Origin: an uncultured Selenomonadales bacterium | GTDB lineage: Bacteria > Bacillota > Negativicutes > Selenomonadales > Selenomonadaceae | Direction of reading: 5' to 3' | DNA length: 47,114 nucleotides | Assembly: GCA_946407095.1 (NCBI GenBank) | Contig: CAMJMR010000015.1 | Coordinates: 1-47,114, forward strand | Shown here: positions 458 through 30,565 of the stretch, piece by piece | Numbering within the stretch: the first letter of the stretch is position 1 | Layout: every line of letters starts with the position of its first letter | Position numbers and translations under genes: made by a program | Notes under the pieces: generated by a model | What the model saw: the letters and a program-made list of their open reading frames with translations, nothing else | Database searches by the model: none | Told to the model about the DNA's origin: nothing

Positions 458-790
458 GGGCAGTTGTCGGCTCTGATTTGGCGTTTCGATAGCTTTCGAG
501 TTTAAGTATCTACTTTCTTTCACCGGGGAAAGAAAGTAGCAAAGACCCGCTTTAAAAGCGGGGAACAGCGTGAACGCGGCGACCGCCCTTAAGTCGTCGA
601 TGACTTTCAACGCGCTATCTGGGTCAAGATTCAAGCTTGCGCCGCTACGCGCGGAGCGGATACCGACCACCGACGAAACGTCCGCGCTGCCCGAAGCCTT
701 GTGTGCGCCGCTACTTCGTATCACGCTCAGTACTCGGCGCGGCCGTCATCCATGACGGCCTCAAACTTCACGGCGCATTGGCGACCTCGT
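458..790 (-). repeat. Dispersed MITE-like repeat, copy A (inverted orientation)
   Basis: This is the only copy in the window lying on the minus strand. It begins at GGGCAGTTG (458), a form of the terminal repeat, and holds the family hairpin CTACTTTCTTTC/GAAAGAAAGTAG at 510-539. It also carries the module with CCAGATAGCGCGTTGAAA (reverse complement near 611-628), the shared GCGGACGTTTCGTCGGTGG block, and the CATGGATG-centred hairpin near 750. The far boundary near 790 is approximate, and no matching terminal repeat was found there. Together with the terminator and fragment it fills the gap between the IS3 remnant and the gene at 848. Confidence 0.8.
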
Positions 791-10081: not shown

Positions 10082-10132
10082 CATTGCATACCCAAAAGGT
10101 TATTGGTTGTTTGTTTTGAAGGAGGCTTTTAC

Positions 10133-10756
10133 ATGGATTGGGACGATTTGGACGATTACTACGATTATGACGACTACGACGACGTGGACGACTACGACGA
10201 CTACTACGACTACGACGATGACGATGATGACGATGATGACGACGATACGCCGCTTACCACCTACGTGACAAACGACGGCGTCACGGTGACGGTCGTCGGC
10301 GAAGGAAACCATCAAGTCTGGTTGAGTAGCGGGGCTTACGGCACGGCGCAAAACATTAACGCAAATCCCTCGTGGGGTCAAAACGTTTTGGTCGGCAACT
10401 ACGCGGCGAATCTCATTGTGTCGGGCGCAGGTCAAAATAACTTGTGGGGCGGTCAAGACTACGCCAATGACATTTTGGTCGGCGGCTTGGGCTACGATAC
10501 TTTCCTCTGCGGCAAGAACGAAGGCTCCGATGTCGTCACCAATGCAGCCGCCGTCGATTCCGTCCGCTTGTACGACGCAACCTTGAGCGATATTGCTTTC
10601 ACGGCCTCGGACGGACGCGGCACTGTCGCCCTGCAATTTAAGAGCGGCAACATCCTTTCCGTGCAGAGTTCGGAACTTTTAAGTTCGGCGTTCGTTTTTG
10701 CGGACGGCTCGGCTTATCGCTTTAATCATGCCACTCAATCTTGGCAAGGCGCGTAA
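10133..10756 (+). CDS. RTX-like protein with an Asp/Tyr-rich N-terminus, paralogue 2
   Basis: A 207-residue protein starting at the ATG 7-8 bases after GGAGG; the longer frame from 10103 is rejected. The first 38 residues are almost only Asp and Tyr (DDYYDYDDYDD..., ending in eleven consecutive D), an extremely acidic tail that could bind Ca2+ or other cations. The rest matches the RTX-like paralogues: NNLWGGQDYANDILVGGLGY, then the shared end QSSELLSSAFVFADGSAYRF..WQGA. Protein function is not known. Its promoter is near consensus and a terminator follows. Confidence 0.75.
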   Translation: MDWDDLDDYYDYDDYDDVDDYDDYYDYDDDDDDDDDDDTPLTTYVTNDGVTVTVVGEGNHQVWLSSGAYGTAQNINANPSWGQNVLVGNYAANLIVSGAGQNNLWGGQDYANDILVGGLGYDTFLCGKNEGSDVVTNAAAVDSVRLYDATLSDIAFTASDGRGTVALQFKSGNILSVQSSELLSSAFVFADGSAYRFNHATQSWQGA

Positions 10757-10783
10757 AAAAAAATTTTTTGTAACGTCACGTTG

Positions 10784-10810
10784 CCCCGTCGAAAGGCGGG
10801 GATTTTTTTT
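10784..10810 (+). terminator. Terminator after RTX-like paralogue 2
   Basis: CCCCGTC and GGCGGGG pair around a GAAA tetraloop (one wobble), followed by a T8 tract after an A. It is about 28 bp past the stop codon. Confidence 0.85.
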
Positions 10811-10889: not shown

Positions 10890-12160
10890 TTGTACAAAGA
10901 CGACAGCGTTCTGGACAATGACCCGCTTGCAGACAACCCCGGCTATACGAATTCAAACAGCGGCGGCGGCGATATTTACAACGCAACCGCCAACAAAGTC
11001 TTGATCGGTACGGTTTACGCCGATTCGATTGCTAACCAAGACGGCGGCGACTGCGTAACGATAAACGCCGGCGCGGGTAACGATATCATCACCAATTCAA
11101 ACGGCGGTCACGTTTTAGGGCGTGTTGGTAAATTAACGAATGAGTAGTAAGGGACAGAGGCCGCCATGGATGGCGGCCGCCGGCAACAAAAACATGGAAG
11201 TTTTTTTGCCGGCACACACGGCTTCGGGTTGCGCGGACGTTTCGCCGGTGGACGGTTTCCGCCCCTGCGAGGCGGGTTTCTTTGCTACTTTCTTTCCCCG
11301 GTGAAAGAAAGTAGATTCTAAACGCCGAATCAGAATCGACAGACTCAATTTACCAACACGTCCTAATTCGTATGTTTGGCTCCAACAACACTCTGAACAT
11401 TGCGGGCGACAATTACTCAACAGCAATGAGCGGCGAGGACATCATTGTCACGGTTGGAAACGGCAAGATAACCCTTGGCGGCGACGGTAGAGACGGCAGA
11501 GAAATGCCGCAAATTGTCGCTACCTACGGCTCTTCAACCGTTCAAGCGGCGACACCCGTTGCCACGACGCCTGCCGCTACTTCAACCACGACGACGACTT
11601 CAACGCCGATTGTCTCAAGCGGTTACGTCTACGCGGGCGGCGACCAAGTCATCAGCAACTACGCGGGCGAACAAATCATGTTGGGCACGTCTCCGACGGG
11701 CGCGTTCTTCGGCGGCGGAAATTTCGCGCTGACTTCGGCGACGGGTACGCTCCTTATCCAAAACGCCAACGACAAGCTAATCAGTTTCACGGACGGCGCG
11801 GACACCCCTTATGCCAAGGCAGGCGTATGCGGCGACGGCGGCTCACAACTGTGGGGCGGCGCAGGCTTCGACGCGGATGTTTTGACGGGCGGCGGCGGCA
11901 CCGATATTTTTATCGGCGGCAAGTATCAGGGCTCGGATATTTTCTTTAACGCCTCCTCCGCCGACGTTGTGAACTTGAACGACACGACACTTAGCGATAT
12001 CGTTGCGGCAAGTGAGGCCAACGGCGTGATAGCTCTTGCCTTCAACACGGGCAACGTCGTAGCGGTTCAAAGTTCGGAACTTTTGAGTTCGGCGTTCGTT
12101 TTGGCTGACGGCTCGGCTTATCGCTTCAATCACGTCACAAAAGCTTGGCAAGGCGCGTAA
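10890..12160 (+). pseudogene. RTX-like protein, paralogue 3, broken by a MITE and 5' truncated
   Basis: The frame before the insertion reads NKVLIGTVYADSIANQDGGD and NAGAGNDIITNSNGGHVL, and the frame after it reads MFGSNNTLNIAGDNYSTAMS and on to the shared C-terminal module (YRFNHVTKAWQGA). Removing copy C with one TA (248 bp) joins the frames exactly at codon TTA 11115-11117 and ATT 11366-11368. No ATG with a ribosome binding site exists between the promoter and the coding part, so the 5' end was also lost; the listed start is only where homologous coding becomes clear. A protein from an internal start (ATG 11372) is conceivable but lacks a good Shine-Dalgarno. Its last 110 residues are nearly identical to paralogue 1, which suggests gene conversion or recent duplication. 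Confidence 0.8.
11118..11363 (+). mobile_element. Intact MITE, copy C, with terminal inverted repeats and a TA target duplication
   Basis: A 246-bp non-coding element. The left end GGGCGTGTTGGTAAATT and right end AATTTACCAACACGTCC are inverted repeats with one mismatch, flanked by TA on both sides (11116-11117 and 11364-11365). Inside, in order: GGCCGCCATGGATGGCGGCC hairpin (11160-11179); GCCGGCAA/TTGCCGGC hairpin with an AACATGG loop region (about 11181-11213); the GCGCGGACGTTTCGCCGG block; and the CTACTTTCTTTC/GAAAGAAAGTAG hairpin (11285-11314). It encodes no transposase. Excision with one TA restores the host reading frame, which proves it is an insertion. This is the reference copy for the family. 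Confidence 0.93.
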
Positions 12161-17269: not shown

Positions 17270-18367
17270 TTATAAATGCGCCTTCATCTTGAGGATGCGG
17301 CGAACGGATTCGTCGATACGCGCCATGGAAATTTCGCCGCGCTTCACGGCGTTGATTATGCCGTCGTAAACGATTTGCTGACTGTCGTAATTGTGGCAGA
17401 CCAGAGCAATATCGCCGCCCGCTTGAATCATTTTGACGCCCAAGCTTGCCAACTCGACGTTGTTTTTAATCGCGCCCATTTCCAAATCGTCAGTGACGAC
17501 AACGCCCGAATAACCCATCTCGTTGCGCAGAAGCCCCGTCATAACGGCAGGCGACAGGCTCGCGGAGTTGGCGGGGTCAAGCGCAGTGTATTTCAAATGC
17601 CCGACCATAATCATGAACTTGCTATTGTCGTGCCCGCGAATGATTTTCGCGAACGGCAAAAAATCTTCGGCGGCAAGCGTTGCCTTATCGTCTTCGATTT
17701 CGGAAACTGCCTTGTGCGGGTCAATCTTGCTTTTGCCTATGCCGGGGAAGTGTTTCAGCGTGTAGAAGAAATTTTCGGCCTCGTAGCCCTGCGCGGCGGC
17801 GTCGACGAAATTGGCGACGGTCTGCGCGTTATCGCCGAAAGAGCGCGTGTCTTTGCTGCCGACATCAGCCACGGGCGCGAAATTTAAGTTGACGCCGATA
17901 CTGCGCAGGATTTTGGCGTTGTGGCGAGCCCAATAGGTTGCGTTGGAAGGCTGACCGCTTAGCCCGATTTCCTCTTGCGAAGGCGCGACTTCAAACATAT
18001 GTCTGCCGCGAGCGACGCGCCCGCCCTCCTCGTCTATCGCGACGAACAACGGGGCTTTCTGATTCGCGGCAAAGGATATATCGTCGACCAATTTTTTTGT
18101 CTGCGCCACGCTTTCAAGGTTCCTGTCGAAGAGAATCAAGCCGCCGAAATGAATTCTGTTCAGCAGGTAAAAAATATCGTCATTGACGCTTGTGCCGTAG
18201 ACGCCAATCATAATCATCTGCCCGACTTTTTCTTCGAGCGTCATTGCTTTGAGCGTCTCTTCAATCGGGTCAGGCGGAGGAGGCAGAACGTCGGCTTGCA
18301 CTTCCTTGACTTCGCCGCAACCCGTCATGAGCAGAGCCGCGCAGATTATCGCTAAAAATTTTTTCAT
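17270..18367 (-). CDS. Beta-N-acetylhexosaminidase-like lipoprotein (GH3, NagZ-like)
   Basis: Exported lipoprotein of 365 residues: signal with lipobox LLMTGCGE (Cys at about 17), then a GH3 domain. Family markers include GQMIMIGVYG, the AIDEEGGRVAR strand, NLNFAPVADVG, KHFPGIGKSKIDPH (NagZ: KHFPGHGD..DSH) and VVTDDLEMGAI with the nucleophile Asp. It should release N-acetylglucosamine from peptidoglycan fragments outside the cytoplasmic membrane. The KHFPG loop differs from the standard GHGD, which may change the substrate. It is 1 bp downstream of the next gene and likely co-transcribed with it. Confidence 0.88.
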   Translation of the reverse strand: MKKFLAIICAALLMTGCGEVKEVQADVLPPPPDPIEETLKAMTLEEKVGQMIMIGVYGTSVNDDIFYLLNRIHFGGLILFDRNLESVAQTKKLVDDISFAANQKAPLFVAIDEEGGRVARGRHMFEVAPSQEEIGLSGQPSNATYWARHNAKILRSIGVNLNFAPVADVGSKDTRSFGDNAQTVANFVDAAAQGYEAENFFYTLKHFPGIGKSKIDPHKAVSEIEDDKATLAAEDFLPFAKIIRGHDNSKFMIMVGHLKYTALDPANSASLSPAVMTGLLRNEMGYSGVVVTDDLEMGAIKNNVELASLGVKMIQAGGDIALVCHNYDSQQIVYDGIINAVKRGEISMARIDESVRRILKMKAHL

Positions 18368-18368
18368 A

Positions 18369-19064
18369 TTACCTCTCCAAATTCACAACGCCGGGATTTT
18401 TGAGCATCCAGCCTCTTTCGGGGTCGTGAGTAAAAATTGCGGGCAACTTGACCGAATATTTTTTGTAGGTGCCGCGCTGATAGTTGAGCGCGAAAATTTC
18501 TTTAAGCCCGCCGTGTTCGTGCAATTCTTCGTCGCAAGGGTTCATGGGGTTGGGGACAACCGCGAACTCGTCACCCGAAAGTTTGAACGCCCAATAGCTG
18601 CTGTCGCGCACGTCTATGGCGGGGCGGAAAGTCATTGAGCCGCCGTAAGTCAACGCCCGCAATTTTTTTTCGCGAACGAATTTTTCACAGCGCGTCAACT
18701 GTCCCGGCTTAACCATTTCCTCGGCAAGGGTATTGAAATCTGCCACGAAATCCATCCACGGGTCTTGCGGCGCCAGCGGCGTGACGTTCAGCGAACGCGG
18801 CTCCGATATGTCCAGCCCGAACGGCTCCACTTGCGGCACTTCCGAAACGACCGTCGGCTCTCTCAGCTGATTGACTTTTTCCTCGACCTTGTCCAACTTT
18901 TTTTTCATCTTCTGCACTTCCGACTGAAGCTTTTCGATTTGCGCGGCCTTGGTGCTGTTGCTCGACCACAGATACGCCACGGCGAACAGCAGCACGACGC
19001 TCAAGCCCAATGCCAAAAAGTTCAGTGCGTCGGCAAAAAGCGGCGATGCCATTGTTTCTTCCAT
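18369..19064 (-). CDS. Single-pass membrane protein with coiled coil, unknown function
   Basis: I do not recognise this 231-residue protein. From ATG 19064 (GGGAGGT 7 bases upstream) it has a short N-terminus, one membrane segment (about residues 13-33), a coiled coil (AAQIEKLQSEVQKMKKKLDKV, about 41-68) and a folded C-terminal domain (about 105-231) with GSMTFRPAIDVRD and FAVVPNPMNPC. The longer open frame to 19292 runs into repeat D and is rejected. It is next to and tightly spaced with the NagZ-like gene, so an envelope role is plausible. Confidence 0.75.
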   Translation of the reverse strand: MEETMASPLFADALNFLALGLSVVLLFAVAYLWSSNSTKAAQIEKLQSEVQKMKKKLDKVEEKVNQLREPTVVSEVPQVEPFGLDISEPRSLNVTPLAPQDPWMDFVADFNTLAEEMVKPGQLTRCEKFVREKKLRALTYGGSMTFRPAIDVRDSSYWAFKLSGDEFAVVPNPMNPCDEELHEHGGLKEIFALNYQRGTYKKYSVKLPAIFTHDPERGWMLKNPGVVNLER

Positions 19065-19094
19065 ACTTTCGACCTCCCTACCAGGATTTACCGA

Positions 19095-19403
19095 TAAAGT
19101 AAAAAACGAATTGCAAAGAACGAGGCCGCCAAGGATGGCGACCGCCCGCGTCTTAAACAGCGGGCACAGTCGGCTTCGGGTTGCGCGGACGTTGGACAAG
19201 TGATCGGCAGCCGCTCCGCGCGGCAACGTGACGTTGCATCCAGATAGCGCGTTGTAGCTCGCTGACGGCTTAAGGGTGGACGCCGCGTCCACGCTGTTCC
19301 CCCGCTTCTAAAGCGGGTCTTTGCTACTTTCTTTCGCCAGTGAAAGAAAGTAGGTAGATAACGCCGAATCAGTGCCGACAAATCCTATTTATCAACACGC
19401 CCC
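19095..19403 (+). repeat. Dispersed MITE-like repeat, copy D
   Basis: It contains the GCGCGGACGTT block, the module with GCAACGTGACGTTGCATCC and CAGATAGCGCGTTG (19221-19301), the CACGCTGTTCCC block and the hairpin CTACTTTCTTTC/GAAAGAAAGTAG (19324-19353). The right end is the terminal repeat CTATTTATCAACACGCCCC, ending at 19403; the left terminal repeat is absent or decayed, so 19095 is approximate. It lies upstream of the unknown membrane protein gene and fills most of the gap before the tRNA. Confidence 0.8.
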
Positions 19404-19411
19404 AGCCCCTT

Positions 19412-19445
19412 AACGAACAAAGCCCGCGCCGTTAAAGACGCAGGC
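19412..19445 (-). terminator. Probable terminator after tRNA-Gln
   Basis: On the minus strand GCCTGCG pairs with CGCGGGC (one mismatch) around a loop of about ten bases, followed by TTTGTTCGTT. The U tract is weak, so this is tentative. Confidence 0.5.
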
Positions 19446-19460
19446 CTGAAATTTCTTGAT

Positions 19461-19536
19461 TGGCAGGGGTAGCTGGACTCGAACCAACGCATGCCAGATT
19501 CAGAGTCTGGTGCCTTACCAACTTGGCGATACCCCT
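19461..19536 (-). tRNA. tRNA-Gln (anticodon CTG)
   Basis: A full 76-base cloverleaf on the minus strand: acceptor AGGGGTA/TACCCCT, D arm with AAGTTGGTAAGGC, anticodon stem CCAGA/TCTGG with loop CTCTGAA (anticodon CTG, reading CAG), T arm with GGTTCGAGTCC and an encoded CCA end. It is flanked by a weak terminator-like hairpin on its 3' side. Confidence 0.96.
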
Positions 19537-19589
19537 TTGGTAAAACCGTTGCCATTTATACCACACGCCAAAAGCTTTGTCAATCGAAA

Positions 19590-20312
19590 TTATTTCTTGT
19601 CTTCCTTGGACTTTTTGTCTTTGGATTTTTTATCTTTGTCTTTCTTATCTTTTTTGTCTTTGGACTTCTTGTCTTTAGATTTTTTGTCGGGAGCGGAGTT
19701 GTCTTTGAAAGTGGTGACGCCGTAGCGGTAAACGTCGACGAAATTTTTATCCATTTGGGTGGTGAGGAGCTGGACGCTTACGCAACGACCTTCGGGGGTG
19801 CGGAAGAAAGTGTAGATATCCTGTCTGTCGGCAACGAATTCGCCTTCGACTTCGCCGGTCTCTTTGTTGAGGACTTCGATTGATTGGGCGGTGACGGCGT
19901 AGACACCCTTGTTTTCCTTGGTTATGCTGACGATTTCGGCGAGTTCAAAGCCGTTGGTTTTCTTGAGGCCTTCCAGATATTCGTCGATAGTTTTTTTGTC
20001 CGCCTTGTTGAAGTCGGGGATTTTGTCGTTGTCGAAGGCGTTGACTTGAATCAGGTAGGCGTATTGGACGTTCCAGCCCTCGTTGGCGAAGACAAGCATT
20101 TCACCGCGCTTTGAGGGGTCTTCCCAAGGATTTTGGACGACGGCAAGCGGCTTGAACGGGCAGGCGATTGAGTAATTGAAGTCTTCGCTCGTGTAGATGT
20201 AGGGCTCGTCTGTCGGCTCGGCGTTTTGCTCGGTAGCCGCCGCTTCCTCGGCGAAGGCGGTCGCCGTAAGAATCATCATCAGCAGAGCCGTCAGGAAAAA
20301 GATTTTTCGCAA
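19590..20312 (-). CDS. Secreted protein with a Lys-rich tail, unknown function
   Basis: A 240-residue exported protein not recognised as a named family. The signal peptide is clear (MRKIFFLTALLMMILTATAFA). The mature part starts with an acidic segment (EEAAATEQNAEPTDEP), then a folded region of about 150 residues (YTSEDFNYSIACPFKPL..). It ends in a highly basic tail of about 33 residues built from KKSKDKK units. The tail could bind anionic polymers or nucleic acid; that is a guess. It has its own promoter (20345-20373) and stands alone between tRNA-Gln and the metallo-hydrolase. Confidence 0.75.
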   Translation of the reverse strand: MRKIFFLTALLMMILTATAFAEEAAATEQNAEPTDEPYIYTSEDFNYSIACPFKPLAVVQNPWEDPSKRGEMLVFANEGWNVQYAYLIQVNAFDNDKIPDFNKADKKTIDEYLEGLKKTNGFELAEIVSITKENKGVYAVTAQSIEVLNKETGEVEGEFVADRQDIYTFFRTPEGRCVSVQLLTTQMDKNFVDVYRYGVTTFKDNSAPDKKSKDKKSKDKKDKKDKDKKSKDKKSKEDKK

Positions 20313-20344
20313 ATCGATTCACCTCGTTGGAAAATTTTGCTTGC

Positions 20345-20373
20345 ATTGTACATTACCTGAAAAAAATATGCAA
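20345..20373 (-). promoter_or_regulatory. Promoter of the Lys-rich-tail secreted protein
   Basis: On the minus strand TTGCAT (20368-20373) and TACAAT (20345-20350) are 17 bp apart, 33 bp upstream of the ATG at 20312. Confidence 0.7.
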
Positions 20374-20383
20374 GGATAATTTC

Positions 20384-20412
20384 TTGCACCGCCCTAAGAA
20401 ATTCGTTAAACT
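20384..20412 (+). promoter_or_regulatory. Promoter of the metallo-hydrolase gene
   Basis: TTGCAC (20384-20389) and TAAACT (20407-20412) with a 17-bp spacer, 19 bp before the TTG start at 20431. It is back to back with the promoter at 20345-20373. Confidence 0.55.
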
Positions 20413-20430
20413 TTGGCGGGGGTGAGCGAA

Positions 20431-21318
20431 TTGAGATTGACGATACTTATTGAGAACACGAAACCCGAAAGTTCGGCGTTGACGGCGGAGCACGGGCTAA
20501 GTTTTTTTGTGGAGACGGCTCGGACGAAATTTATCTTTGATTGTGGACACACGGGCGCGGCCTTCGACAACGCGAAGATTTTGGGCGTCGACCTGCGCGG
20601 CGTGAAGGTTGCGGCGTTGAGCCATTCACATTACGACCACGCGGGCGGCTTCCCTAAGCTTTTGGACTGCGCGGCGATTGAAACGGTTTTGACGGGCGCG
20701 AACTTTTGGGAAGAAAAATTTTCACGCACCGACGACGGCTTCAAGTACAGAGGCTGCGGCTTCGACGAAAATTTTTTGGCGGCGCGCGGCATTAAGCAAG
20801 TCGTCTGCCGAGATGTGCTTGAGCTTGACGCGGAGGCGTGGCTTGTCGGGAATTTTAAGCGGCGTTACGATTTTGAAACGATACCGAAAAAATTTGTTCG
20901 CGGCGCAGAAAAAATCCCCGACGGCAACGTGACGTTGCATCCAGATAGCGCGTTGAAACTCTTCGGCAGCTTAAGGGAGGATGCCGCGCTTGAACGTTCC
21001 TTTATCCCCGATGACTTTAGCGACGAGATTGTTTTGGTGTTGCGCGGCGGCGAAGGCTTGACAGTCGTGACGGCTTGCGCGCATTCGGGCATTCTAAATA
21101 TCGTTGCCGACATTCGCGAGCGATTTGCCTTGCCGCTTGCGCGAGTGATTGGCGGCTTGCACTTGACGGGCGCGGCGCAGGACAGAATTAATCGCACGCT
21201 TGCCGAGCTTAAAGCTTTGGGCGTGAGGGAAATTTTGCCGTGCCACTGTTCGGGCGAAGAGTTCATGAGCCGTTGCCCGCGCAGATTGTCTACGGGCTCC
21301 GTCATCGAAATTCCATGA
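20431..21318 (+). CDS. MBL-fold metallo-hydrolase with an in-frame repeat-derived insert
   Basis: Metallo-beta-lactamase fold protein of 295 residues, resembling the branch often annotated as dihydropteroate-synthesis-related or RNase-Z-like hydrolases. The metal motif SHSHYDHAGG (about residues 68-77), a late ACAHSGILNI (His ligand) and GGLHLTGA are present. Between KFVRGAEKIPD and IPDDFSDEIVLVL there is a stretch of about 27 residues (GNVTLHPDSALKLFGSLRED...) that is not expected in the family and is encoded by a copy of a module from the dispersed repeats. The TTG start at 20431 follows GGGGGTGA. The substrate is unknown. Confidence 0.8.
   Translation: MRLTILIENTKPESSALTAEHGLSFFVETARTKFIFDCGHTGAAFDNAKILGVDLRGVKVAALSHSHYDHAGGFPKLLDCAAIETVLTGANFWEEKFSRTDDGFKYRGCGFDENFLAARGIKQVVCRDVLELDAEAWLVGNFKRRYDFETIPKKFVRGAEKIPDGNVTLHPDSALKLFGSLREDAALERSFIPDDFSDEIVLVLRGGEGLTVVTACAHSGILNIVADIRERFALPLARVIGGLHLTGAAQDRINRTLAELKALGVREILPCHCSGEEFMSRCPRRLSTGSVIEIP
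20922..21000 (+). repeat. Repeat module embedded in frame in the metallo-hydrolase gene
   Basis: Its first 34 bases are identical to bases 19221-19254 of intergenic repeat D, and similarity continues for about 45 more (CTTAAGGG and GCCGCG blocks). It starts with the perfect 7-1-7 palindrome GCAACGT G ACGTTGC. An 18-base part, CCAGATAGCGCGTTGAAA, also occurs in repeat A. It adds about 26 codons without a stop or frameshift. Confidence 0.8.
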
Positions 21319-21452
21319 AAAATTTTTTTGAGCCGCCGTCCGATCGCCGACTTTGTGACGACGCGTCATTAAGCCGTTTAAAAATCTTGACTTATTGGCC
21401 TTCGCGTCTTGCCGCCAATCTGTAGGCGTTTCACGTTGAAAATTTTAAATGA

Positions 21453-21458
21453 TATAAT
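21453..21458 (+). promoter_or_regulatory. -10 box (TATAAT) upstream of nrdD
   Basis: A perfect TATAAT with the extended form TGATATAAT, 95 bp upstream of the nrdD start. No well-spaced -35 is visible (the nearest TTGAAA is only 11 bp upstream). No NrdR boxes or cobalamin riboswitch core were recognised in the 21319-21552 gap. Confidence 0.5.
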
Positions 21459-21492
21459 CGCGCCGCGCCAAGATTTTACTTTGGAGGGAGGC

Positions 21493-21531
21493 ATGCGCAT
21501 TCAACATGGTCAAGCGTGTTTTTTTTTCTAA
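21493..21531 (+). CDS. Possible 12-residue leader peptide upstream of nrdD
   Basis: A mini open frame, ATG to TAA, with a strong ribosome binding site (GGAGGGAGG, 2-3 bases before the ATG), encoding MRIQHGQACFFF. It ends 21 bp before the nrdD start and contains a T9 run. Its translation could affect nrdD expression, but there is no clear attenuator hairpin, and it may be chance. Confidence 0.3.
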   Translation: MRIQHGQACFFF

Positions 21532-21552
21532 ACTATGAAAGGAGGGAGACAA

Positions 21553-24500
21553 ATGAAGATTGCCAAAGTTCGGAAGCGTTCGGGGCAAAAGGTGAATTAC
21601 GACCGCGAAAAGATTTTCAGCGCAATAGCCGGCGCAAATCGTGACGCGTCGACGCCCGCCGACAAACTTTCCAACAGCGACTTGCAACTTGTGACGAATT
21701 CGGTTGAGCAGGCGATATCCGAAAACGAAATTATCGACGTCGAAGCGATTCAAGACCAAGTCGAAAAAAGTTTGATGGCGCACGGTTTCTTCGACGTTGC
21801 CAAGCAGTTCATTGTTTACCGACAAAAACATTCTCAACGGCGCGCCGCGCAGAAAAGGCTTATGACAACCTACCGCGATATTTTCTTCGCCGACAGCGTG
21901 GACATCGACCTCAAGCGCGACAACGCAAATATCAATACCGACGCCTCAATGGGCATCATGCTCAAACTCGGCGCGGAAAGCTCAAAGTACTTTGTCGATA
22001 ACTACGTACTGCCCGAAGAGTTTGTCCAAGCCGACAAGGAAAACTGGATCCATATTCACGATAAAGACTTTTCGCTGATAACGTTCAACTGCTGCCAAAT
22101 CGATTTGCTCAAGCTTTTTCGCGGCGGCTTTTCGACGGGGCACGGCTTCCTTCGCGAGCCCAACTCCATTCGCTCCTACGCGTCGCTTGCTTGTATCGCT
22201 ATCCAGTCTAACCAAAATGACATGTTCGGCGGACAAAGCATAAATGCGTTCGATTATGCGATGGCTGAAGGTGTAAAAAAATCTTTCAGGAAGGCGATAC
22301 GTGACGAGGTAAAACGCGCCTGCAACTTCTGCGGCGTGGAGGCGGCGGGCGAAATTGATTTTAATGTTTGCACTTATTCAGAGGGTGATAACCTTGTCGC
22401 TGTCGACAACTTAATTCAAGTCGTCAGATCGGCTAAGCTGGCGGAGAAAATTTATCGGCAAGCTTGTATCGATGTTGAAGAGGAAACCCATCAAGCCATG
22501 GAGGCACTGATTCACAACTTTAACACGTTGCACAGCAGGGCGGGTGCGCAAGTCCCTTTCAGCTCGATAAACTACGGCATGGACACCAGTCCCGAAGGGC
22601 GCCTCGTGATTCGCGAAGTTCTTAACGCTATCGACGCGGGGCTCGGAAACGGCGAAACGCCCATTTTCCCGATAAGCGTCTTTCAACTTAAGGCGGGCGT
22701 CAATTACAACGTCGGCGACCCGAATTATGATTTGTTCCGCCAAGCCTGCAAAGTCAGCGCAAAGCGGCTCTTCCCCAATTTCGTTTCGCTCGACGCGCCG
22801 TACAATCTTCAATACTACAAGCCCGGCGATTATAACAGTTACGTCGCTACGATGGGGTGCGCGGACGGCGATGAGATTGTCAGCTATCGTTACGGCGGAA
22901 AATTTTTCTGCGAAGGACTCAAACGTCTTTGGGCGCGCTTAAGCGAGTCCGTTCAGCGTCGCGGGATAAGCGAATACGTTCAGCCGAAAGACTTGCAGGT
23001 TTGGGACGCCGACGCCGATAAATTCGTCGACGTCTACACGGCAGTCAAAAATCCCGACCAAGGCAACTGGGTCAGAATAAATTTCGATAACGGCAGGTCA
23101 ATCCTTGTGACGGCCGACCATCCGCTTTATACGGCAAATCGCGGGCGCATTCGCGTTTCCGACTTAAAAATCGGCGATACCGTCAAAGCATTCTACGCCG
23201 CGCCGAACACGGAAGCTAAATCGGAACTCGTTCGCAACGTCGACGAAGCTTACATTTTGGGGCTTATCGTAACGGACGGCTGTTACGACGGCGGCTTGTT
23301 CGTGAGCCTTGACGCCAAAACGGAGGAGTATGTTCTCGAAACATTCACGGAGCGTGTAAAGACTGCTTGGGACAAAGACTGCACCGTCATGCGTCACGAG
23401 CGCGGCGATAAAGGCGATTACTTCATGGTTTACGTCAAAGGCAGCCCTAAAGAATATCAGGAAAGGCTTACCGCGATTTTCGGCGGCTTGCAGAAAAACA
23501 GCAGGCAAATCCCCGCCGATGTTTTCACGGCACCGCGCGAAGTCAGATTGGCATTCCTTGCGGGCATGATTGACGGCGACGGGCAGGATGGCTACAAATC
23601 TAACGTCCAACTCGGCAACACGAACAAAGAGCTTGCTTGGCAACAGTTGGCACTTGCTCAATCGCTCGGCTATCCCGCTAAGCTGTACTTAAATCGATAC
23701 AGCTCCGAACAACCCGAAAAGATTCGTTACCGCGTCGAATTCACGATGTCGGACGAAATTGCCAAACACCTTGCAAGCGCAAAAAAATCTTGCGTCCGGT
23801 GGACTGGCAACGAATCTCGTACAAAGACGCCCGAAATCGTCAGTGTGCGTTCGATTGAATACCTCGGCAGCCTCGACAAGTGCAGTTACGACTTGGAGAC
23901 GGCGACGGATAAATTTACCTTGTCGTTTATCAATTCGGGCAACTGCCGGACGCGTGTCATGTCGAACGTCAACGGGCGCGAAGAATCGGGCAGCAGAGGG
24001 AATTTTGCCTTCGTGACGATTAATTTGCCCAAGCTTGCGCTGGAGGCTAAGGGCGACCTTGAAAAGTTTTTCGCGCTCTTTGACAAGTACATCGCGCTTT
24101 GCCACGATTATCTTTTGTGCCGTCTAAAGACCATTGAGGAAAAGCACGTCTACAATTTCCCGTTCCTTATGGGGCAAGGCGTCTGGATGGATTCGGAAAA
24201 GCTCAAGCCGACCGACAAGATTAAAGACGTCCTTAAGCACGCCAGCTATTCAATCGGCTTTTGCGGGCTCGCGGAGTGTCTTGTTGCGTTGACGGGCAAG
24301 CATCACGGTCAAAGCGACGAGGCACAGGAATTGGGCTTGAAAATAGTCGGCCACCTTCGCGAAAGAACAGACGACTACACCAAGCTTGAGCGGCGGAACT
24401 GGACGACCTTCGGAACGCCCGCCGAATCAACCGCAGGACAATTTCAGCGCTCCAATCGTAAATCTTACGGCATAATTAAGGGCGTGACAGACCGACCTTA

Positions 24501-24834
24501 CATGACGAATTCTAGCCACGTGCCCGTTTACTTCCCGATATGCGCCGGCGACAAGATTCGCATTGAGGCTCCGTACCACGCGCTGTGCAACGCGGGACAT
24601 ATCGCCTACATAGAAATGGACGGCGACCCGACGAAAAATCTTTCCGCGTTCGAGGCATTGGTCAGGGCAATGCACGACGCCGATATGGGCTATTTCAGCA
24701 TAAACCATCCCGTCGACCGCGACCCTGTTTGCGGCTACACAGGCATTATCGCCAACGAGTGCCCGCATTGTCACAGGAAGGAAGTCGAAACAGGAACTTT
24801 CCACATTGAGCGATTGAAGCCTAACGGCAAATGA
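21553..24834 (+). CDS. nrdD: Anaerobic (class III) ribonucleoside-triphosphate reductase with intein
   Basis: Makes deoxynucleotides without oxygen. ATG 21553 (GGAGG 8 bases upstream) gives 1093 residues: ATP-cone (about 1-90), catalytic barrel with NCCQIDL (about 177) and GFSTGHGFL, an intein (436-797), and the rest of the barrel to the Zn-type motif CGYTG..CPHC at the end. Without the intein the protein is 731 residues. The chain stops at HIERLKPNGK, where relatives continue into the glycyl-radical loop (RxTGYL and about 30 residues). No such sequence is seen in any frame before the terminator at 24840, so activity is doubtful as drawn. The activase gene nrdG is not in the window. Confidence 0.9.
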   Translation: MKIAKVRKRSGQKVNYDREKIFSAIAGANRDASTPADKLSNSDLQLVTNSVEQAISENEIIDVEAIQDQVEKSLMAHGFFDVAKQFIVYRQKHSQRRAAQKRLMTTYRDIFFADSVDIDLKRDNANINTDASMGIMLKLGAESSKYFVDNYVLPEEFVQADKENWIHIHDKDFSLITFNCCQIDLLKLFRGGFSTGHGFLREPNSIRSYASLACIAIQSNQNDMFGGQSINAFDYAMAEGVKKSFRKAIRDEVKRACNFCGVEAAGEIDFNVCTYSEGDNLVAVDNLIQVVRSAKLAEKIYRQACIDVEEETHQAMEALIHNFNTLHSRAGAQVPFSSINYGMDTSPEGRLVIREVLNAIDAGLGNGETPIFPISVFQLKAGVNYNVGDPNYDLFRQACKVSAKRLFPNFVSLDAPYNLQYYKPGDYNSYVATMGCADGDEIVSYRYGGKFFCEGLKRLWARLSESVQRRGISEYVQPKDLQVWDADADKFVDVYTAVKNPDQGNWVRINFDNGRSILVTADHPLYTANRGRIRVSDLKIGDTVKAFYAAPNTEAKSELVRNVDEAYILGLIVTDGCYDGGLFVSLDAKTEEYVLETFTERVKTAWDKDCTVMRHERGDKGDYFMVYVKGSPKEYQERLTAIFGGLQKNSRQIPADVFTAPREVRLAFLAGMIDGDGQDGYKSNVQLGNTNKELAWQQLALAQSLGYPAKLYLNRYSSEQPEKIRYRVEFTMSDEIAKHLASAKKSCVRWTGNESRTKTPEIVSVRSIEYLGSLDKCSYDLETATDKFTLSFINSGNCRTRVMSNVNGREESGSRGNFAFVTINLPKLALEAKGDLEKFFALFDKYIALCHDYLLCRLKTIEEKHVYNFPFLMGQGVWMDSEKLKPTDKIKDVLKHASYSIGFCGLAECLVALTGKHHGQSDEAQELGLKIVGHLRERTDDYTKLERRNWTTFGTPAESTAGQFQRSNRKSYGIIKGVTDRPYMTNSSHVPVYFPICAGDKIRIEAPYHALCNAGHIAYIEMDGDPTKNLSAFEALVRAMHDADMGYFSINHPVDRDPVCGYTGIIANECPHCHRKEVETGTFHIERLKPNGK
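22858..23943 (+). other. Intein in NrdD (362 residues, LAGLIDADG endonuclease)
   Basis: The insertion splits the conserved NrdD motif MGCRTRV after MG. The intein starts with Cys (CADGDEIVSYRYGGKF), carries splicing block B (ILVTADHPLYTANRG) and two LAGLIDADG motifs (YILGLIVTDG and FLAGMIDGDG), and ends LSFINSGN before extein Cys+1. The usual penultimate His is replaced by Gly (GN instead of HN), which occurs in some inteins but can slow splicing. It is in frame and uninterrupted, so it looks functional and possibly still able to home. Confidence 0.93.
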
Positions 24835-24839
24835 AAAAA

Positions 24840-24870
24840 CCTCCGTCAGATGTTTGGCGGAGGTTTTTTT
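24840..24870. terminator. Bidirectional terminator between nrdD and the glycosyltransferase array
   Basis: CCTCCG pairs with CGGAGG around a 12-base loop, with A5 before and T7 after. It starts 6 bp after the nrdD stop and touches the stop of the convergent glycosyltransferase gene at 24869, so it serves both sides. Confidence 0.88.
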
Positions 24871-26005
24871 ATCGGCGTTTCAGTTCGGCTTCTAAGGCGG
24901 CGATTCGCTGTTGTGCCAACATAAGTTGCCGCCTGTCTGATTTCATTTCGTTTTCCAGGACGGCGATTCGTCGTTGCGTTCGTAACAGCTGCAGGTGGCG
25001 AACATTCATTTCGCTGAAAAGAAGCGCCGTCAGAGCCGCATTGTCACCGTCGCCCAATGTTTCCCTTAAAAGTTCGTCAAGCTCGTGCGCGGGAATTTTG
25101 GCATAAACCTGCGTCAAATGCCCCAGCATTTCATTGGCAAACGCCTCCGTCAAAAGATGTTTCAAATCGGGGCGGCTCGACAAAAATTCATTATCGCCAA
25201 AAAATTCGTCAAGATGTTCAACGCCGTCCCTAATCATCTTCAGCCAAGAATTTACTTGACGGAGCGTGTCAGAATCTTTGTGAATGAGCGAATCCTCTCT
25301 TTTGCGGTAAAAGTAAATGACGTTCGGAACCAAGACGTATTTTTTCGCGCAACACAGCGCGCAGATTGTAAAAATCATATCGTCCGCCATGACGCCGACC
25401 GCTTTAATTGAGTTTTCGACAATGAAGTCGCGGCGGACAAGCTTGACCCAATAGTTCCAAGTGAGTTTCCTTTGACTGAAAAATTTGATTCGCTCTTCCA
25501 AATTGTCCGCCCAAATCAAAGGCTCGGTCAGAAAAACTTTTTCGCCCGTCACGTAACTGAACGGCTTGAGCTTTTTCCGCAATTCGGCGTCGTTCCAAAG
25601 CCTTGCGGGAACTTCGTAATACTTTTCGCAATGAACAACGTCGGCGTCGAATTTTTTTGCCGCAGTGTAAAGTTCTTCAAGGGCAGTCGGCGCAACGGCG
25701 TCGTCGTTGTCCATGAGGTAAAGATATTCGCCGCGTGAATAATCAATGCCCAAATTTCTGGGCTCGGTGCCGTTGCCGGTATTTTTTTTTGTCTTGAAGT
25801 ACTGAAGCCGCCCGCCGAACTTTTCCGTGTAACTTTCGACAATGGCGGGGCTTGAGTCGGTTGAGCAGTCGTCTACTACGATAACTTCAAAATCTGCGAA
25901 CGTTTGCGCAAGGAGGCTGTCGAGGCATTCGGCGATATATTTTTCGGCGTTGTAGACGGGAATAATCACGGACACGGCGGGGAAGGTGTATTTCTGCGTT
26001 GGCAT
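24869..26005 (-). CDS. GT2 family glycosyltransferase, array member 1
   Basis: A 378-residue GT-A fold glycosyltransferase. The N-terminal catalytic region shows VSVIIPVYNAEKYIAECLDS, VVDDCSTDSS (nucleotide binding) and the metal-binding DNDD (about 97-100) in YLYLMDNDDAV. The C-terminal third is helical and ends in a short coiled coil (RIAALEAELKRR). It transfers a sugar from a nucleotide donor, likely for surface glycan or glycoprotein; donor and acceptor are unknown. It is last of five tandem paralogues, with its own AAAGGAGA ribosome binding site and a 12-bp gap to the previous gene. Confidence 0.88.
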   Translation of the reverse strand: MPTQKYTFPAVSVIIPVYNAEKYIAECLDSLLAQTFADFEVIVVDDCSTDSSPAIVESYTEKFGGRLQYFKTKKNTGNGTEPRNLGIDYSRGEYLYLMDNDDAVAPTALEELYTAAKKFDADVVHCEKYYEVPARLWNDAELRKKLKPFSYVTGEKVFLTEPLIWADNLEERIKFFSQRKLTWNYWVKLVRRDFIVENSIKAVGVMADDMIFTICALCCAKKYVLVPNVIYFYRKREDSLIHKDSDTLRQVNSWLKMIRDGVEHLDEFFGDNEFLSSRPDLKHLLTEAFANEMLGHLTQVYAKIPAHELDELLRETLGDGDNAALTALLFSEMNVRHLQLLRTQRRIAVLENEMKSDRRQLMLAQQRIAALEAELKRR

Positions 26006-26017
26006 AGGGATTCTCCT

Positions 26018-27160
26018 TTAATCTGCGCGGCGCAATTCGGCTTCCAGGGCGGCGATTCGTTCTTGTGCCAAGGTGAGCTGTCGGCGGTCGGATTTCAATT
26101 CGTTTTCCATCACGGCGGCTTTTTGCAGAGTTCTCTTCAGCAACAGCCGATTGATATTCATTGCGCTGAAAATAAAGGCTTTTAGAGCCGGCGTGACGTC
26201 TTCGCCGAATTCTTTCCTTAAAATTTTGTCGAGGGCATACGCGGGAAGTTGCCTGTAGATATGCTCCACATTTCCGACGATTTCCTTTGAGAACATGTCG
26301 AAAAGAAGGTACTTTAAGTCAAGGCGCGACGAAAAAGCCCTTTGCTCATCCAAAAACTTTTCAAAATATCTGAAGCCGTCTTTAAGCATAGTCAAGCGCG
26401 AATGCAAAAATTTTTCGGCGTTATCGCTGTCTTGCCAAAGCAAAGAGCCCGAATGAACGCGATGCATGTAAATGACATTCGGGACGACAAGATACCTTTT
26501 GGCGGAACAAATTTCGCAGATGGTAAAAAGTTTGTCGTCAAGCGCGATGCCTACGAATCTCAATTTGTTTTCCAGAATGAAACTGCGGCGAATGAGCTGA
26601 ACCCATATGCTCCAGGTGAGCCAGCCTTTAGTGAAGTCAACGGCGCGTTGCGCAAAATCTTCGGCAAGCAAAGTCGGCTTTGTTATGAAAATTTTTTCGT
26701 AAGAGGGATGACAGGACGCTTTAAGATTTTTTCTGTACTCGGCGTCGTGATAAAACTTATCGGGGATTTCGAAATTTTTTTCGCAATGGACGACATCGGC
26801 GTCATAATCCTTGGCAAGCGTGTAAAGTTCCTCAAGCGCGGTCGGCGTGACGGTATCGTCGTTGTCCATGAAGTAGAGATATTCGCCGCGCGAATAAATA
26901 ATGCCCAAATTTCGGGGCTCGGTGCCGCTACCGGTATTTTTTTTCGTCTTGAAAAAGCGAAGCCGCCCGCCGAACTTTTCCGCGTAACTTTCGACAACGG
27001 CAGGGCTTGAGTCGGTTGAGCAGTCGTCTACGACGATAACTTCAAAATCCGTGAACGTCTGCAAAAGGAGGCTGTCGAGGCATTCGGCGATATATTTTTC
27101 GACGTTGTAAAGCGGGATAATCACGGACACGGCGGGGAAGGTGTATTTCTGCGTTGACAT
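26018..27160 (-). CDS. GT2 family glycosyltransferase, array member 2
   Basis: A 380-residue paralogue of its neighbours, nearly identical in the first 110 residues (VSVIIPLYNVEKYIAECLDS, VVDDCSTDSSPAVVESYAEK, MDNDDTVTPTALEELYTLAK). The acceptor region from about residue 160 differs more: it has LTWSIWVQLIRRSFILENKL and a Phe/Tyr-rich helix set. The C-terminal coiled coil (SDRRQLTLAQERIAALEAEL) is shared. The start is supported by AAAGGAGAATC upstream of ATG 27160. The pattern of a conserved donor domain and divergent second half fits enzymes using the same sugar donor on different acceptors. Confidence 0.88.
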   Translation of the reverse strand: MSTQKYTFPAVSVIIPLYNVEKYIAECLDSLLLQTFTDFEVIVVDDCSTDSSPAVVESYAEKFGGRLRFFKTKKNTGSGTEPRNLGIIYSRGEYLYFMDNDDTVTPTALEELYTLAKDYDADVVHCEKNFEIPDKFYHDAEYRKNLKASCHPSYEKIFITKPTLLAEDFAQRAVDFTKGWLTWSIWVQLIRRSFILENKLRFVGIALDDKLFTICEICSAKRYLVVPNVIYMHRVHSGSLLWQDSDNAEKFLHSRLTMLKDGFRYFEKFLDEQRAFSSRLDLKYLLFDMFSKEIVGNVEHIYRQLPAYALDKILRKEFGEDVTPALKAFIFSAMNINRLLLKRTLQKAAVMENELKSDRRQLTLAQERIAALEAELRRAD

Positions 27161-27173
27161 GAAAGATTCTCCT

Positions 27174-28316
27174 TTAATCTGCGCGGCACCGCTCGGTTTC
27201 CAGGGCGGCGATTCGTTCTTGCGCCAAGGTGAGCTGTCGACGGTCAGAATTCAATTCGTTTTCCAGTACGGCAATTCGTCGTTGCGCTCGCTTCAGCAAC
27301 ACTTGATAAACATTCATTGCGCTAAAAATGAACGGCATAAAAATCGTATCGTCGTCCTTGAGGAATTCATTTTGCAAAAGCTCGGAAAAAGCATATATCG
27401 GTCGTTGCAAATACACGGCGTCGAAGGCCTCTATCATTTTCTTAAAAAAGGTATCGAACAAAACGTATTTCAAGTCGGGGCGATTGGAAAGCCTTTCGTT
27501 GTCGGCAAAGAACTCGTCAAGATATTCCATGCCGAATTTAATGCATTTAAACCATTTGTTGATTCGCGTGGCGTCGTCTATGTTTTCCGTTGTCACGGAG
27601 TCTTCGCGCACGCGGTAATTGTAAACGGCATTTGGAACTATAACGTATGTCTTGGCGCAACAAAGCTCGCAAATGGTCAGTATCATGTCTTGAGCGACGG
27701 CGTCTTGCAATTTAATCGAATTTTCAACGATAAATTCACGACGAATAAGTTGCGCCCAATAATTCCATATCAGTTTTCTTTCCGCGAACATTCGCGCGCG
27801 TTCGGCAATATCGTCACTTAAAACGGTCGGAGCCGTCACGTTCAAACGCCCTTCGGTAAAATAATTGTCGGGTTTAAGGTTTGCCCGCAAGTCTTTGTTG
27901 TGCCAAATGCTGTCGGGAACGCGATAAAATTTTTCGCAATGAACAACGTCTGCCGAAAATTTTTCTGCAAGCTCGTAAAGTTCCTCAAAGGCTGTCGGCG
28001 TGACGGCGTCATCGGCGTCCAAGAAGTAAAGATATTTGCCGCGTGAAATTTCCAATCCGATATTTCGCGGCATACTTCCGCCGCCGCCGGATTTTTTTTT
28101 CATGCGTGCAAGCTTGAGCCGCCCGCCGAACTTTTCCGCGTAACTTTCGACAACGGCGGGGCTTGAATCGGTGGAACAGTCGTCGACTACGATAACTTCA
28201 AAATCTTGAAACGTCTGCAAAAGGAGGCTGTCCAAGCATTCGCCGATATACTTTTCCGCGTTGTAGAGTGGAATGACTACCGAAACAGCAGGACAGCTAA
28301 ATTTTTGTTCCGTCAC
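27174..28316 (-). CDS. GT2 family glycosyltransferase, array member 3
   Basis: A 380-residue GT2 paralogue with VSVVIPLYNAEKYIGECLDS, VVDDCSTDSS and the metal site as DADD (YLYFLDADDAVTP), a variant of DNDD in members 1 and 2. It has one extra GGG in KKKSGGGGSMPRNIGLE. The C-terminal half (WNYWAQLIRREFIVENSIKL) aligns with the others, and the coiled coil SDRRQLTLAQERIAALE is nearly identical to member 2. Good GGAGG upstream; 13-bp gap to the next array gene. Confidence 0.88.
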   Translation of the reverse strand: MTEQKFSCPAVSVVIPLYNAEKYIGECLDSLLLQTFQDFEVIVVDDCSTDSSPAVVESYAEKFGGRLKLARMKKKSGGGGSMPRNIGLEISRGKYLYFLDADDAVTPTAFEELYELAEKFSADVVHCEKFYRVPDSIWHNKDLRANLKPDNYFTEGRLNVTAPTVLSDDIAERARMFAERKLIWNYWAQLIRREFIVENSIKLQDAVAQDMILTICELCCAKTYVIVPNAVYNYRVREDSVTTENIDDATRINKWFKCIKFGMEYLDEFFADNERLSNRPDLKYVLFDTFFKKMIEAFDAVYLQRPIYAFSELLQNEFLKDDDTIFMPFIFSAMNVYQVLLKRAQRRIAVLENELNSDRRQLTLAQERIAALETERCRAD

Positions 28317-28329
28317 GAAAATCCTCCCT

Positions 28330-29418
28330 TTAAAGATTTACTTCACGCGGCGCAGTTCGTTTTTCCAAGGCGGCGATTCGCTGTTGCGCCTGCAAAAGTT
28401 TCAAGCGATAAACATTCATTGAACTGAAAACAAAAGCGTTTAGAGCAATGTTGCCGTCGTCGCTGAATTCTTTTTGCAAAAGTTCATCGAGGGCAAACAT
28501 CGGGATATTGACATAAATATTAATCAAATGCCCTAAAATTTCTTGTACGAACATATCGAACAAAGCGTATTTGAGATCGGGTCTCTGCGCAAAAAGCTCT
28601 TGTTCACTCAAAAATTCATTAAGGTATCGAACACCTTTTTTCAAAGAAGAAAGTTCCTTGTGAAGAAATGTGGACAATTCCGGGCGCGAATGCATTGCGG
28701 AGCCTTCGCGTTGCCGATAAAAATAAATGACATTGGGCACGACGAGATATTTTTTTGCAGAACAAATTTCGCAAATGGTAAATGCACAGTCTTCAAAGAC
28801 GGGAAGGTTAGCAAACTTGATACTTGTTTCTATTATAAAATTTCTGCGTACAAATTGAATACCCATGCCCCATGTGAGCCAACGTTTGCTGAATTCAGTG
28901 ACGCGAAGAGCAAAATCTTCCGTGAGTAAAGTCGGCGTCGTTATGAAAATTTTTTCGCCTGCAGGCCACGAGCTAGGCTTGAGACTTTTTCTGTATCCGT
29001 CATCATGCCAAAACTTATCGGGGACTTCGTACCATTTTTCGCAATGGACAACGTCGGCGTCGTATTTTTTTGCAAGAGTATAAAGTTCTTCAAGAGCTGT
29101 CGGCGTAACGGCGTCATCGGGATCCATGAAGTAAAGATATTCGCCGCAAGAAAGTTCAATGCCCCTATTACGCGGGGAGCCTGCACTGCCCGAATTTTTT
29201 TTCATACGTGTGAGCTTAAGCCGCCCGCCGAATTTTGACGCGTAACTTTCGACAACGGCGGGGCTTGAGTCGGTTGAGCAGTCGTCTGCGACGATAACTT
29301 CAAAATTTTGAAAGGTCTGCGCAAGGAGGCTGTCCAAGCATTCGCCGACGTATTTTTCGACGTTGTAAAGCGGAATGACAACAGATACTGCAGGGCAGAT
29401 AAATTTTTGTTTCGTCAC
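28330..29418 (-). CDS. GT2 family glycosyltransferase, array member 4, with altered C-terminus
   Basis: A 362-residue GT2 paralogue: VSVVIPLYNVEKYVGECLDS, VADDCSTDSS (V to A change) and DPDD at the metal site (YLYFMDPDDAVTP). The tail reads RIAALEKRTAPREVNL instead of the family RIAALENELRRVK. One base less in the T5 run at 28360-28364 (plus strand) would give exactly ALENELRRVK and a stop, so a single-base insertion has changed the last ten residues. The catalytic part is intact, and activity is probably kept. GGAGG precedes ATG 29418. Confidence 0.85.
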   Translation of the reverse strand: MTKQKFICPAVSVVIPLYNVEKYVGECLDSLLAQTFQNFEVIVADDCSTDSSPAVVESYASKFGGRLKLTRMKKNSGSAGSPRNRGIELSCGEYLYFMDPDDAVTPTALEELYTLAKKYDADVVHCEKWYEVPDKFWHDDGYRKSLKPSSWPAGEKIFITTPTLLTEDFALRVTEFSKRWLTWGMGIQFVRRNFIIETSIKFANLPVFEDCAFTICEICSAKKYLVVPNVIYFYRQREGSAMHSRPELSTFLHKELSSLKKGVRYLNEFLSEQELFAQRPDLKYALFDMFVQEILGHLINIYVNIPMFALDELLQKEFSDDGNIALNAFVFSSMNVYRLKLLQAQQRIAALEKRTAPREVNL

Positions 29419-29439
29419 GAAAATCCTCCTTTTACCGGT

Positions 29440-30565
29440 CTACTTAACGCGGCGCAGTTCGTTTTCCAGGGCACCAATATGTTGGCTTGCGTGCATGAGA
29501 TTCAAACGATGAATGTTCATTGCACTGAAAATAAAGCTCGTTAAGGCGGTATTGTCGCCGCTATCGAATTCCTTGCGCAAAAGTTTATCGAGGTCATACG
29601 GAGGGATTTGAGTGTAAAGCTCGTCCAAGTGCCAAAGCATTTCATTGGTAAGCAAATTGAACAAAATGTACTTCAAATCGGTGCGTTGTGAAAATAATTC
29701 AATGTCGCTCAAAAATTTATCCAGATATTGGAAACCGTCTCGCAACATGCTTAGCCACAAATGAACGTGCTTAGCCGCATCAAATTTCTTGTGAACGAGC
29801 GAATCGTTTCTGTGGCGATAAAAATAAATGGCATTGGGAACCAATACATACTTTTTCGCACAACAAATCTCGCACGTGGTGAAGAGCATGTCATCTGCCA
29901 TTATGCCGACCATTTTTATTGCGTTTTTGATTAAAAAGTCACGTCGGACAAGTTGAATCCAATAGTTAAAAAGAATTTTCCTTTGACCAAAAAAGTTTTA
30001 CACGTTCCTCTATGTTATTCTCCCAAATCCACGGTTCCTGCACAAAAAAATTTTGTCCCATCATACCGAGCGGTTTGAGCTGTTTTCGAATTTCGGCATT
30101 GTACCAAATTTCTTCGGGAACTCTGTAGAATTTTTCGCAATGGACAACGTCGGCGTCGTATTTTTTTGCGAACGAATGCAATTCCTCAAAAGCTGTTGGT
30201 GTAACGGCATCATCGTTGTCCATGAAGTAAAGGTACTCGCCGCGCGAATAAGCCAATCCAAGATTTCTGGGCTCGGTGCCGCTGCCCGTATTCCTGTTCG
30301 TTTGAAAATAACGGAGCCGCCCGCCGAATTTTGGCGCGTAACTTTCGACAACGGCGGGGCTTGAGTCGGTTGAGCAGTCGTCGACAACGATAACTTCAAA
30401 ATTTTGAAAGGTCTGCGCAAGGAGGCTGTCCAAGCATTCGCCGATATACTTTTCTGCGTTGTAGAGTGGAATGACTACCGAAACAGCAGGGCAGGTAAAG
30501 TGCGGTGGGGGGGGGGTAAATGAATTGGACAATTGGCGTATGCGCCCGGATTTGTGTTTTGCCAT
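29440..30565 (-). pseudogene. GT2 family glycosyltransferase, array member 5, frameshifted (possibly phase-variable)
   Basis: First gene of the array. The N-terminal part (29966-30565) has VSVVIPLYNAEKYIGECLDS, VVDDCSTDSS and MDNDD, then stops after FWSKENSF. The second part (from 29914 down to 29440) continues the family in another frame (VGIMADDMLFTTCEICCAKK). Removing one base from the A6 run at 29989-29994 gives VKLFGQRKILFNYWIQLVRR, exactly as in the paralogues. A G10 run (30507-30516) also encodes Pro residues near the N-terminus within a 17-residue extension not found in the other members. These tracts are prime sites for slippage; a sequencing error is the main alternative. Start at ATG 30565 with AAAGGAGA. 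Confidence 0.8.

Follow-up and report, generated by a model that had tools for sequence, protein, structure and literature searches.

A dispersed hairpin repeat in frame within a metallo-hydrolase gene of an uncultured selenomonad, very probably a small mobile element with target-site duplication

Short palindromic repeats that lie between genes and also, in frame, within unrelated proteins, to which they add a recurrent peptide, are described from Rickettsia as Rickettsia palindromic elements (RPEs), and similar in-frame repeats are reported in Wolbachia (PMC10969869, PMC2229807, in the portions of these papers drawn on here). The part of the 2007 review used here (PMC2229807) gives RPEs a length of 105-146 bp, long stem-loops and terminal inverted repeats, and lists their target duplication as '?'. 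The same portion describes YPAL/RU-2 of Yersinia as a small element of 168 bp, located between genes, which has internal but no terminal inverted repeats and for which filled and empty sites with variable target duplications of 3-26 bp are known, and it describes bacterial MITEs (RUP, Correia/NEMIS, ERIC) as non-autonomous elements in many copies with a target duplication, terminal inverted repeats and TA ends. A further class, the CGTC-tagged REPs (dRS3 and some RPEs belong to it), has intragenic units and does without a dedicated transposase according to the sections of PMC3733652 considered here, a paper in whose main text the terms 'target site' and 'duplication' are absent. The mobility of palindromic repeats of this in-frame kind, those of Rickettsia among them, is not well understood, and the Selenomonad family described below gives a handle on this question.

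The window, that is the whole analysed stretch of 47,114 nucleotides from an uncultured Selenomonadales bacterium (contig CAMJMR010000015.1, assembly GCA_946407095.1), contains a gene for an MBL-fold metallo-hydrolase at 20413..21318 on the + strand, recognised by its matches to Pfam Lactamase_B (9.9e-10) and PDB 2p4z_A (3.1e-32) and by alignment with 29 same-genus homologues; an NCBIfam search of the protein gave only matches far below the cut-off. Counted from a TTG the protein has 301 aa, the start codon being uncertain, and its reading frame stays open across a segment of 80 nt at 20924..21003 (+), which shares its similarity with a repeat family of the same genome mostly over 20922-20988. 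This segment is very probably a non-autonomous mobile element that inserted into the hydrolase gene and duplicated its target. It starts with the terminal hairpin GCAACG-TGA-CGTTGC (20924..20938, +), which together with the following ATCC forms a 19-nt core (20924-20942), and it is flanked by two copies of a 10-bp stretch with the pattern ATCCCCGA[C/T]G, namely ATCCCCGACG on the left (20914..20923, +) and ATCCCCGATG on the right (21004..21013, +). The two copies differ at a single position, where the same residue is encoded and where both C and T are present among the aligned relatives. Because 80 + 10 = 90 nt preserves the frame, the gene was kept readable, with a net gain of 30 residues that consist of GNVTLHPDSALKLFGSLREDAALERSF and a second IPD. 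An earlier sequence-only reading had counted about 26 extra residues and placed the module at 20922..21000, an interval that begins within the left flank copy and ends 3 nt early, but it was right that the frame is unbroken and that the insert lies between two conserved parts of the MBL fold, as the split matches in relatives and the alignment with 2p4z show. The inserted residues are probably tolerated as an extra loop between these halves; the predicted structure of the window protein alone (mean pLDDT 34) was uninformative on placement in a surface loop. Phage records compared with 18300-22500 gave no match.

A search with the protein at a cut-off of E<=1e-10 covered 60 genomes of relatives (a tally that includes the own genome), of which 41 gave a match, including 30 of the 36 same-genus genomes. 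Within the genus these matches break in two, the first part comprising residues up to about 170 and the second those from about 198, and in 20 of the 30 genomes with a match the half-matches share exactly 9 bp, the others having an overlap of 3, 6 or 12 bp, or none. Loci were returned for 29 same-genus homologues, and in the alignment of these the segment is absent from all 29. The nearest homologues read ..EK-IPDDFSDE.. or close to it at the position where the window protein reads ..EK-IPD-GNVTLHPDSALKLFGSLREDAALERSF-IPD-DFSDE.., and in the DNA the relatives have one ATCCCCGAYG-like stretch and the window gene two, with the element between them. PDB 2p4z is likewise without the insert, and its single GKRIPD was aligned by HMMER to both IPD copies. 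The identification of the duplication in this gene rests on these empty sites, since 10 bp is short, one position is mismatched, and the repeat by itself scores only 7, which falls in the range of sites that lack a duplication. The check for the same residues in homologues was thus negative for all 29, and the claim of the sequence-only reading that a dispersed palindromic repeat invaded a coding sequence in frame is supported by the absence of the segment.

At many other copies of the element, a stretch that ends exactly at GCAACG recurs downstream. With a flush direct repeat defined by a score of at least 12, and random positions in the same loci as a control, such repeats were found at 26 of 56 sites in the own genome (44/1120 random positions), at 21 of 31 sites in same-genus loci (9/620) and at 44 of 116 sites in loci of named genome contigs (51/2320), where the latter two sets are not independent because some of their loci look like the same sites, and where the control is raised by random positions that may fall within repeats. 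Copies on viral contigs showed none (0/37, against 0/740 random positions). When arrays are left out, flush repeats are present at 13 of 41 own, 17 of 27 same-genus and 33 of 103 genome-contig sites. The duplications are mostly about 20-60 nt long, with extremes of 7 and 127, and the core is preceded by a purine at 195 of 203 sites (146 times G, 49 times A). No flush repeat was found at 30 of the 56 own sites, many of which, by eye, lie within composite intergenic repeats.

Eight sites of the own genome were compared with 36 relatives, of which 22 belong to the same genus, and the results given here are those of the matches listed. At the purE site, for which a duplication of 23 bp was predicted, the half-matches overlap by exactly 23 in at least five genomes (G001, G011, G015, G020, G021), and at the site neighbouring purE (58 bp) the half-matches overlap partially, by just the amount expected from where they end, in at least six (G001, G013, G014, G016, G017, G021); a third site, with 33 bp, has an overlap of 32 in at least one genome (G011). 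There are also misfits: the purE site seems occupied in G013 and has its halves about 0.8 kb apart in G016, the 58-bp site has halves without overlap in G020, the match at aroC continues into the element in G019, and at ftsY G019 has about 0.7 kb between the halves and G013 has the end of the gene twice. At three other sites, no genome had both halves side by side among the matches listed. As flush repeats are common and three sites are single-copy in relatives, the family makes target-site duplications of variable length.

As the sequence-only reading had noticed, 19221-19254 repeats without a difference the 34 bases that begin at 20922; the match in fact extends over 67 nt at 87% and belongs to an intergenic copy of the element (19223..19287, +) in composite repeat D that was also found by the own-genome search. 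The 18 bases it had reported as common to repeat A are likewise there, as CCAGATAGCGCGTTGAAA on the minus strand, within a related copy (541..640, -) that has the variant hairpin CAAG...CTTG. Composite intergenic repeats at 19100-19400, 480-700, 11157-11363 and 31831-32041 contain several hairpin modules each, such as the terminator-like CCCGC..GCGGG and CTACTTTCTTTC..GAAAGAAAGTAG, and some of these repeats also contain copies of the element. In the own genome, a 101-base query around the insert gave at least 43 matches, with 40 of the 176 candidates scored. At up to 2 mismatches 136 sites fit the 17-bp palindrome, and the exact 19-nt core has 107 copies; the reversed controls for the palindrome and the core each gave 0. 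Of 60 genomes sampled from the genus, the own among them, 34 carry the core, the number of copies ranging from 0 to 107 across the sample, and none of 397 other genomes sampled from the phylum does; this patchy spread across the genus counts in favour of insertion. Among named genome contigs at least 112 stretches with the core were found, and the 80 titles listed for core-bearing contigs are mostly those of Selenomonadaceae, Selenomonadales, Quinella or clostridial MAGs, with a few from Fusobacteriaceae, Planctomycetaceae and Verrucomicrobia. In Fusobacteriaceae/Propionigenium loci (L120, L124, L134, L143, L154) the core follows A runs that resemble gene ends and, by eye, several of these cores stand shortly before a terminator-like hairpin, a context unlike that of the Selenomonad copies. 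The exact core is also found in 33 stretches of viral contigs (L231-L263), probably above chance, and by eye the conserved downstream part is absent there. Tandem arrays of the element with its flank occur as 150 nt x3 (L102), 162 nt x2 (L113) and 64-nt steps x4 (G079:C84), and further arrays are found in L099, L107 and G029:C25.

To describe the structure of the element, 120 copies up to a CCGCG motif were gathered from own, relative and named loci, of which 77 were aligned, after removal of 21 copies that belong to the window's subfamily and of 22 that were odd or nearly duplicated others. The aligned copies, which therefore represent a related subfamily and not that of the window, are 62-65 nt long, and because the core and the final CCGCG defined the selection, only the spacing and an inner CGCG near position 26 count as findings. 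The consensus fold of the 77 copies predicts a 6-bp terminal hairpin at one end only, without covariation, and its invariant columns provide no covariation evidence since the selection pattern had nearly fixed them; a second stem in the element, suspected by eye, is unsupported by this fold. The hairpin end is fixed and the 3' end is variable; element lengths are mostly about 40-125 nt, those of own-genome elements with duplications being about 54-124 nt. Rfam has no family for the element in the window and the seven loci searched, and the literature text searches made, among them one with the letters of the hairpin, found no published description of the family.

Read in frame, the core translates as NVTL, and the genome-wide peptide scan proposed with the sequence-only reading gave 92 matches in the own genome, with in-frame copies also in a Lon-family protease (TIGR02903), at residue 674 and past the model's last match at 635, and in FlhF (TIGR03499), at residue 153 in what by eye is a low-complexity stretch. 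These two copies were called in frame from the open frame and the family models, while empty sites were established for the MBL gene. Element and duplication together measure 90, 96 and 123 nt in the three in-frame copies (90 in the MBL gene), totals that are divisible by three but do not constitute independent evidence, because the copies were found by their open frame. Some of the other open frames of at least 185 aa over copies of the element look antisense or precede the probable start. Genes with a copy of the element at their start (purE, aroC) or end (ftsY) appear to survive the insertion, since the gene is still present intact thanks to the duplication.

Several other features of the window are recorded here in their own right. 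The anaerobic ribonucleotide reductase gene NRDD (21535-24834, +), a single open frame, has matches to intein splicing and LAGLIDADG homing endonuclease domains. It is followed at 24869-30565 (-) by five similar genes in tandem that by eye are glycosyltransferase-like; the one at the high end is in two frames (29440-29913 and 29966-30565), perhaps through a frameshift, and a further relative lies on the opposite strand at 33882-35015. The ORF at 10103-10756 (+) has a long aspartate run and is, by eye, RTX-like further on, and a core-like sequence is found just downstream of it at 10766-10784 (-).

As to how the element moves, its hairpin end may be joined to a staggered break or nick in the target, after which fill-in would copy the overhang and create target duplications of variable length. 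Profile searches of the own genome found 0 matches to Y1_Tnp and 0 to RVT_1, absences that are suggestive only, because this genome is 89% complete. In same-genus genomes Y1_Tnp was matched in 3 of 22 (G002, G007, which is below the cut-off, and G013), one of them a core carrier, and RVT_1 in 5 of 22 drafts, namely 2 of 11 core carriers and 3 of 11 non-carriers. Insertion might also come about by template switching without any dedicated enzyme, when a stalled replication fork switches to a copy of the repeat at the hairpin, replicates a portion of that copy and returns upstream, leaving target, element and target in a row with no endonuclease involved. I consider this a possible though rather unlikely route: the fixed hairpin end, the variable other end and the varying length of the duplications fit it, as does an own genome without a Y1_Tnp or RVT_1 match, but the purine preceding the core at nearly all sites looks enzymatic, and the patchy, locally high copy number looks like active spread. 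More doubtful still is a SINE-like, RNA-templated insertion, in which an RNA with a hairpin 3' end (GCAACGUCACGUUGC) would be reverse-transcribed at a target nicked after a purine. Such a process, improbable as I take it to be, would produce 5'-truncated copies with duplications of about 10-60 bp and would seed the same NVTL peptide into unrelated proteins; it agrees with the variable duplications, with one fixed and one variable end and with the base preference at the fixed end, while the missing RVT_1 match in the own genome speaks against it, as do the RVT_1 counts for carriers and non-carriers, which come from drafts of varying completeness.

The short hairpin, the high copy number and the grouping in tandem would suit a REP element moved by a RAYT (Y1 tyrosine) transposase, an explanation that I nevertheless regard as very improbable, since the own genome has no Y1_Tnp match and only one of the three matching same-genus genomes carries the core. 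Long target duplications are not known for RAYTs, which counts against it as well. Furthermore, the GTAG tag that REPs have according to the sections used of PMC3733652 is not seen here. That the repeat was put into the MBL gene by an assembly artefact could be suspected in a draft genome of 101 contigs that is rich in repeats, but this is hardly credible with an intact frame, with both flanks matching relatives as one gene, with a duplication at the junction, and with an anatomy that recurs at other sites and in further genomes. The least probable explanation, and one that I reject, is the suggestion in the sequence-only reading that part of this gene was taken up by the repeat family; the 67 nt in common would fit such a capture, yet all 29 aligned homologues are without the segment and the genome has 107 exact copies of the core.

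Insertion of a mobile element thus remains the preferred reading, and it means that an MBL hydrolase, and probably also a Lon-family protease and FlhF, have gained residues from mobile DNA outside the Rickettsiales. The integration is directly testable in this family, which has filled and empty sites, duplications of measured length, one fixed hairpin end and a preference in its targets. In its behaviour the family works like the RPEs, as it is inserted in frame in the genes of unrelated conserved proteins (MBL, Lon-family protease, FlhF). The likeness to the Rickettsia elements put forward in the sequence-only reading accordingly stands for behaviour but not for the long palindrome: a long stem-loop of the whole element is not found, and only the short hairpin at one end, 6 bp in the 77 related-subfamily copies, is predicted. 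Target duplications, moreover, are demonstrated for the Selenomonad family, unlike for RPEs. With YPAL/RU-2, compared by description, the family has in common that target duplications vary in size and that inverted ends are not seen by eye, but its duplications reach about 60 bp, its elements are shorter and some are intragenic, and in place of a 168-bp unit with internal inverted repeats the consensus fold has a single terminal hairpin. It resembles the CGTC-tagged REPs in its palindrome with a CCA-like tail and in its intragenic units, but has no outer CGTC tag and no AT-initiated stem of 8-9 bp, the stem here being 6 bp; the hairpin is mostly preceded by CG, GG, TG or AA, bases that are part of the duplicated target at the sites where relatives were compared. 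Like MITEs, it is non-autonomous and present in many copies with a target duplication (empty sites in the MBL gene and at three more sites); by eye, terminal inverted repeats are not seen in the listed elements, and the 3' ends vary. The Selenomonad family therefore joins traits known from RPEs, YPAL and CGTC-tagged REPs to longer duplications and a different structure.
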